Source: a virus
Strand: one strand, 5' to 3'
Length of the DNA stretch: 64,000 nucleotides
Virus record (IMG/VR): IMGVR_UViG_3300028558_000791
Coordinates: 1-64,000 of that record
Made by a program: the position numbers and the translations under genes
The notes under the pieces: generated by a model
What the model saw: the letters and a program-made list of their open reading frames with translations, nothing else
What the model was told of the DNA's origin: nothing
Databases searched by the model: none
In this document: one piece after another, positions 44,503 through 44,570 of the stretch
Numbering within the stretch: position 1 is the stretch's first letter
Layout of the letters: the number at the start of each line of letters is the position of its first letter

Positions 44503-44570
44503 AAGTCAAATGCCTTGATAGGATTACATTTTACCAAAAGAAAACATCTTATCTACTTTTTGTTGACTTT
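44503..44570 (+). repeat. tRNA-spacer element copy 3 (E3), minimal
   Basis: Ends AAGTCAA/TTGACTT pair. Left: ATGCC-TTGATA-GG-ATTACA; right: AAAACATCTT and CTTTTTG. The insert is only 12 nt (TTTTACCAAAAG), so this copy shows the element does not need a tRNA inside. It fills the spacer between two tRNAs. Confidence 0.75.

Follow-up and report, generated by a model that had tools for sequence, protein, structure and literature searches.

The stretch of DNA analysed here (the window) covers the first 64 kb of a viral record of 480,838 bases, a length that makes this a genome of jumbo-phage size. It encodes a Ro60/Rsr protein and, 5–9 kb downstream of that gene, a tRNA array interspersed with copies of a short RNA element, six of them in the window (E1–E6) and a seventh (E7) at 76,350 of the record. 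Scores below refer to R1, a covariance model of the minimal core built from 15 elements.

35734–37419, plus strand: Ro60/Rsr protein of 561 aa (TROVE and vWA_Ro60 domains; PF05731 and PF25045 above their cut-offs)
42247–42352, plus strand: E1, Y RNA flanked on both sides by tRNA genes, its insert T-arm-like (R1, 46.4 bits)
42803–43019, plus strand: E2, YrlA-like Y RNA with a permuted tRNA-like insert (from sequence; core aligned)
43624–43880, plus strand: E6, Y RNA with a long insert (core alignment; orthologue at 18672–18872 of phage contig L130)
44428–44502, plus strand: tRNA-Asp(gtc), whose CCA ends at the base directly before E3
44503–44569, plus strand: E3, very probably a minimal (YrlB-type) Y RNA (R1, 60.8 bits, with E3 itself in the training set)
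44503–44509, plus strand: P1 5′ strand AAGTCAA, predicted Ro-binding lower stem, pairing with 44563–44569 (covariation)
44509–44514, plus strand: conserved AATGCC, 5′ side of the internal loop (AATG in 15/15 aligned elements)
44517–44524, plus strand: P2 5′ strand GATAGGAT, pairing with 44546–44553 (compensatory changes in orthologues)
44529–44540, plus strand: 12-nt insert TTTTACCAAAAG, apical hairpin TTTT-ACC-AAAA (RNA folding)
44546–44553, plus strand: P2 3′ strand ATCTTATC (covariation with 44517–44524)
44557–44569, plus strand: conserved TTTTTG (44557–44562), then the P1 3′ strand TTGACTT (44563–44569) (alignment and covariation)
44573–44666, plus strand: tRNA-Ile(tat), beginning 3 nt past P1 of E3
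45271–45481, plus strand: E5, Y RNA flanked by two tRNA-Ile genes, its insert ∼160 nt long (alignment)
45895–46048, plus strand: E4, YrlA-like Y RNA with a permuted tRNA-like module (full-length alignment to YrlA, RF02553)

E3 is a compact hairpin RNA of 67 nt, in the order P1 (7 bp), AATGCC, P2 (8 bp), the conserved TACAT, apical hairpin, TTTTTG and P1′. P1 encloses an asymmetric internal loop with AATGCC on its 5′ side and TTTTTG on its 3′ side, and P2 is topped by TACA and then the small apical hairpin. Both conserved ends and the closing stem lie where the original prediction had placed them. The 12-nt insert is no unstructured filler but a TTTT-ACC-AAAA hairpin, for which orthologues carry counterpart helices. 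E3 thus combines a two-helix lower stem with conserved internal-loop nucleotides of the kind recognized by Ro60, the hallmarks of the Yrl superfamily. Above P2, where a YrlA-type RNA has a permuted tRNA-like module, it has only the 12-nt apical hairpin, as expected of the YrlB type, a minimal Y RNA lacking any such module.

Folded alone, E3 reaches −11.6 kcal/mol, which is only moderately better than its shuffles (z = −2.1), and the case for the predicted structure is a comparative one, not one of single-sequence fold energy. Across 15 elements, 94.6% of the pair cells hold standard pairs, compared with 73.7% in shuffles, which ignore relatedness, and at most 64% in slid controls, which keep it; cells in which both partners have changed number 47, compared with 17.5. 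In a set of 48 model-aligned elements the corresponding figures are 97.1% standard pairs and 183 double-change cells versus 50, although this set leans toward the model because its alignment was fitted to R1. Covariation is strong in both P1 and P2, and AATG(C) and TTTG are invariant or almost invariant among the aligned elements. As judged from these alignments, the predicted structure of the element is under selection.

The sister elements differ in what they carry above P2. The expectation that all other copies carry a tRNA holds for E2 and E4, in which a tRNA-like module is circularly permuted, with its 3′ half ahead of its 5′ half; E1 and E7 have a T-arm-like hairpin only, and inspection of the E5 and E6 inserts revealed no recognizable tRNA. 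The heads in this set are of four types: none, T-arm only, permuted tRNA and long folds. In E2 the permuted insert has an encoded ACCA following its 3′ half and ∼80 nt preceding its 5′ half, and could for that reason be a substrate of RNase P and 3′ processing; its anticodon stem pairs poorly. A possible eighth copy at 50925 was discarded, as its closing stem is absent and R1 does not match it.

Several further features of the array and its surroundings deserve record. A tRNA with an anticodon loop of ∼15 nt and an inner ACCGTAAGG hairpin lies at 41562–41644 of the window and at about 15990–16072 of L130; it is conserved in both phages and intron-like. At 18177–18305 of L130, a tRNA-Asn has its anticodon split by an insert of ∼45–50 nt that holds a T-arm-like hairpin, and the window counterpart (43429–43515) is without the insert. 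ARAGORN assigns the anticodon TTA to a tRNA at 50073–50149, a candidate ochre suppressor. Between tRNA-Ile and tRNA-Thr is a 28-nt near-perfect direct repeat, AGCCTGCCCACATGG(A/T)TGGAAACTGTGG, at 45698–45725 and 45759–45786, the start of which reappears near 43771. Two possible RNA-repair neighbors are a PARG-like protein just 3′ of the Ro60 gene (37908–38750) and, within the tRNA array, a weak match to 2H phosphoesterases (43983–44408). A class A bacterial RNase P RNA gene lies at 56887–57250 (272.5 bits).

Is E3 a working type, or what is left of a longer copy? The slot between tRNA-Asp and tRNA-Ile(tat) holds a minimal element in three other phage contigs, L130, L177 and L193. In L193 (267 kb) and L177 (359 kb) the order is tRNA-Asp, E3, tRNA-Ile(tat), tRNA-Leu(taa), tRNA-Phe(gaa), and the same slot in L241, when read, contained no element. 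All three orthologues are minimal (60–73 nt), with P1 and P2 altered yet still paired, including a compensatory change in P2 of L177 from GATAGGAT/ATCTTATC to GATATGAT/ATCATATC. The apical hairpins of L193 and L177 have been re-formed as longer helices of 5–6 bp whose sequence differs from that of E3. A second minimal slot, 5′ of tRNA-Tyr, is occupied in L130, L177, L226 and L202. Upstream of tRNA-Tyr in L202, a 354-kb phage contig, there are four tandem minimal Y RNAs, three of them identical (1353–1837, minus strand). Because its orthologues in the shared slot and the copies in the second slot are minimal too, the minimal form is conserved in its own right.

The original prediction had named a recent internal deletion with no conservation, if homologs showed one, as the finding that would refute it. 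By that account E3 would be the decayed, functionless remnant of a tRNA-carrying element, as might be suggested by the long inserts of its neighbors. Inserts do come and go in evolution, since the core of E1 is nearest to minimal cores, with an identity of 0.77 to those of other phages and 0.73 to that of its own orthologue (L177, 1482–1591). The three minimal orthologues in the same slot, with their compensatory P1 and P2 changes, and the two re-formed apical hairpins contradict such a history, as does the presence of YrlB-like minimal RNAs next to rsr genes in bacteria, and we regard it as very unlikely. Comparative sequence evidence indicates that E3 is a working type, neither a recent deletion nor a fragment of a ribozyme. 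That the element is separable from its cargo is borne out by this movement of inserts and by minimal forms of 57–75 nt, which recur across many phages and bacteria. There is no support, however, for regarding E3 as ancestral. In these phages, as in bacterial rsr loci, minimal forms are found alongside tRNA-like ones; nearest-neighbor core identities mix minimal and headed types, and the core positions are too few for a tree. Nor is “empty” an apt description, since YrlB-like RNAs constitute a known type of their own.

The original prediction had not recognized the element as a Y RNA. Y RNAs are small RNAs that dock on the ring protein Ro60. At the Rfam gathering score no Y RNA was found in the window, and a blastn search of the tRNA region against phages returned tRNA matches only. 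A permissive Rfam search gave weak YrlA and YrlB matches: the alignment of E3 to YrlB (RF02565) covers the whole model and positions 44498–44574 (22.3 bits, E = 0.0089 for 84 nt), and E4 aligns with YrlA (RF02553) over the full model length (24.2 bits). These scores are far under the curated cut-offs of 97 and 69 bits, respectively, which counts against the identification, and because 22.3 bits is below the 97-bit gathering threshold we describe E3 as YrlB-type rather than as a member of RF02565. The Yrl lead nevertheless predicted a Ro60 (TROVE) gene in the phage, which was then looked for and found.

The AlphaFold model of this protein has a mean pLDDT of 76 and a disordered N terminus. A Foldseek search with the model recovered Ro60/Rsr structures at E values of about 1e-15 and nothing else near; the fold matches include 1yvr, 2nvo and 9l5y, and a Ro60 of Thermus phage phiLo is among the structures recovered. 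The protein thus pairs TROVE HEAT repeats with a vWA domain whose MIDAS DxSxS motif is invariant (D357, S359 and S361), the combination that defines Ro60/Rsr.

The minimal core also proved useful for defining the element elsewhere, as had been anticipated, since R1 picks out Y RNAs from other phages as well as from bacteria, mostly adjoining a Ro60 gene or sharing a record with one. Because R1 misses long-insert copies (E2, E5 and E6 score poorly), counts based on it lean toward minimal forms. R1 divided the loci found by two pattern scans, which covered bacterial and viral contigs, into positives and negatives. TROVE was present in 10/12 R1-positive viral records compared with 1/14 R1-negative ones (Fisher p = 1.7e-4), and in five of ten R1-positive bacterial genomes compared with two of fourteen. 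A TROVE open reading frame, detected with a profile of this Ro60 clade, lay within the fetched locus itself in 11 of 22 R1-positive and none of 84 R1-negative cases. The first viral scan used a short pattern and returned mostly chance matches, with L101 and L067 the only real ones; TROVE among the other records of that scan served as the control. L067, retrieved by the RNA pattern alone, has a TROVE/vWA gene that is immediately followed by three Y-like elements. In the Myxococcus phage Mx1, whose Ro60 is 52% identical to that of the window, a copy outside the R1 training set scores 37.9 bits (E = 1.7e-6) directly after tRNA-Ile. This Y RNA (L131, 8553–8656; OR576727.2) overlaps an annotated hypothetical CDS (45524–45646) that is probably spurious. 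In Klebsiella spallanzanii a YrlB-like minimal form comes first and a tRNA-like, YrlA-like form second, and YrlB-like minimal RNAs adjoin bacterial rsr genes. Encoding together with a Ro60/Rsr gene, as is characteristic of Yrl RNAs, is therefore seen both in the window (35734–37419) and as co-occurrence across records.

These associations also bear on a second alternative, in which permuted tRNAs are released or circularized by the element, acting either as a ribozyme (self-cleaving or self-splicing) or as a tRNA-processing signal, and E3 would be the ribozyme left without a substrate. The permuted tRNA-like inserts of E2 and E4, the compact conserved core and the location between tRNAs would all suit such a function. 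E3, however, matches no ribozyme family at the gathering score or at E values up to 10; the core matches Yrl RNAs, Ro60 genes accompany the elements in phages and in bacteria alike, and a permuted tRNA-like layout is already typical of YrlA RNAs, the Klebsiella copy included. We consider this exceedingly improbable.

Somewhat less improbable, but still unlikely, is that E3 binds a host Ro60/Rsr, or competes with host Y RNAs, rather than serving the phage Ro60. Ro60 occurs in ∼5% of bacterial genomes (PMC4726728), the bacterial Y RNAs found here share the core, and three viral records have elements and no detected phage Ro60: L205 and L240, which are R1-positive and in which no TROVE was found, and L101, a 152-kb contig, possibly a fragment, with a clear element and no TROVE match. 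(At 122–257 of locus L140, which belongs to the same contig as L101, is a clear Y RNA with a T-arm insert, on this contig in which no TROVE gene was detected.) Against this, the phage itself has a complete Ro60 gene, 5–9 kb upstream of the RNAs, and most of the related elements co-occur with a Ro60 gene. We therefore favor the view that E3 is a minimal Y RNA belonging to the phage's own Ro60 system, with a probability of about 0.93.

YrlA and YrlB are known from bacterial rsr-yrlBA-rtcBA operons (PMC7790460), and the YrlB of the Salmonella operon is a Y RNA lacking the tRNA-like domain. E3 resembles YrlB in length, in its two-stem architecture and in the motif order AAUGC, GGAUUACAU, UUUGU, with the YrlB consensus GaAUGC corresponding to AATGCC of E3. 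It differs in being phage-borne, between tRNA genes ∼7 kb from the Ro60 gene and outside any rsr-rtcBA operon, RtcB being absent from the genome. With YrlA, E3 shares the Ro-binding core but not the tRNA-like module, the permuted layout of which is common to YrlA, E2 and E4. Metazoan Y RNAs have a lower-stem Ro60 site with two offset bulges (PMC4726728); in both them and E3 the lower stem is broken by asymmetric loops at the docking site (predicted in E3), but E3 is shorter, lacks the large loop and is of bacterial type in sequence. The RYPER complex of Deinococcus radiodurans (Rsr, Y RNA and PNPase) likewise combines a Ro60-type protein with a Y RNA, and 2nvo matches the phage model. In contrast, neither PNPase nor RtcB was found in the phage genome, and E3 lacks an upper module for a tether.

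TROVE proteins in jumbo phages were already known (PMC7824862), and TROVE-encoding phage records number at least 370. YrlA has been reported from several phages as well (PMC7790460; PMC7765460, with reference to Sim and Wolin 2018). Our partial search of the literature turned up no account of minimal, YrlB-type Y RNAs within the tRNA arrays of phages. The less expected part is an array of at least seven Y RNAs wedged among tRNA genes, in a phage that also has Ro60, an RNase P RNA, about 40 tRNAs and five RNA ligases, the last figure being a minimum (at least five).

How such an RNA might work can be sketched from known Ro60/Y biology. E3 would be transcribed within the tRNA-array transcript; sigma-70 promoter and terminator patterns near it are at about chance level. 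Its position, with P1 abutting the CCA of tRNA-Asp and 3 nt separating it from tRNA-Ile, suggests that it would be freed by ordinary end-processing of these tRNAs, by RNase P and 3′ processing. A Y RNA binds the outer face of the Ro60 ring through its interrupted lower stem, which gates the entry of other RNAs and stabilizes the Y RNA itself (PMC4726728, PMC8058203, PMC7790460), and the Deinococcus Y RNA has the further role of tethering Rsr to PNPase (PMC4726728, PMC8058203). By analogy, the lower stem of E3 with its internal loop (P1, AATGCC/TTTTTG, P2) would dock on the phage's own Ro60 ring. E3 could not present a tRNA mimic because it has a short apical hairpin only; headless and with no tether, it would more likely serve gating or Ro60 storage. 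Its job might then be to occupy and stabilize Ro60 and to gate the RNA-binding surface of the protein, a role to which we give roughly even odds. The tRNA-like modules of E2 and E4, and possibly the heads of E1 and E7, may act as tethers or decoys; a tether of the Deinococcus type would need host enzymes, because the phage is without PNPase and RtcB.

A broader picture is one of a single Ro60 that draws on at least seven interchangeable Y RNAs, all freed by tRNA processing and all with the same docking stem but with different heads. E3 would be the headless lid, and in the course of infection the set would direct the ring to differing RNA substrates or to host nucleases. We offer this tentatively and think it rather less likely than the gating role itself. 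With at least five RNA ligases encoded by the same phage, a role for Ro60/Y particles in repairing tRNAs or controlling RNA quality in infected cells is plausible, if speculative.

What had been an unexplained inter-tRNA repeat is thus, very probably, a named RNA whose partner protein is encoded by the same genome. The conserved minimal copies would be natural headless Y RNAs, in which the role in docking and gating may be separable from that of the tRNA-like head. The array suggests that Ro60 particles help giant phages to manage tRNA damage or RNA quality, and Myxococcus phage Mx1, which is cultured and carries both a Y RNA and Ro60, makes this idea testable.
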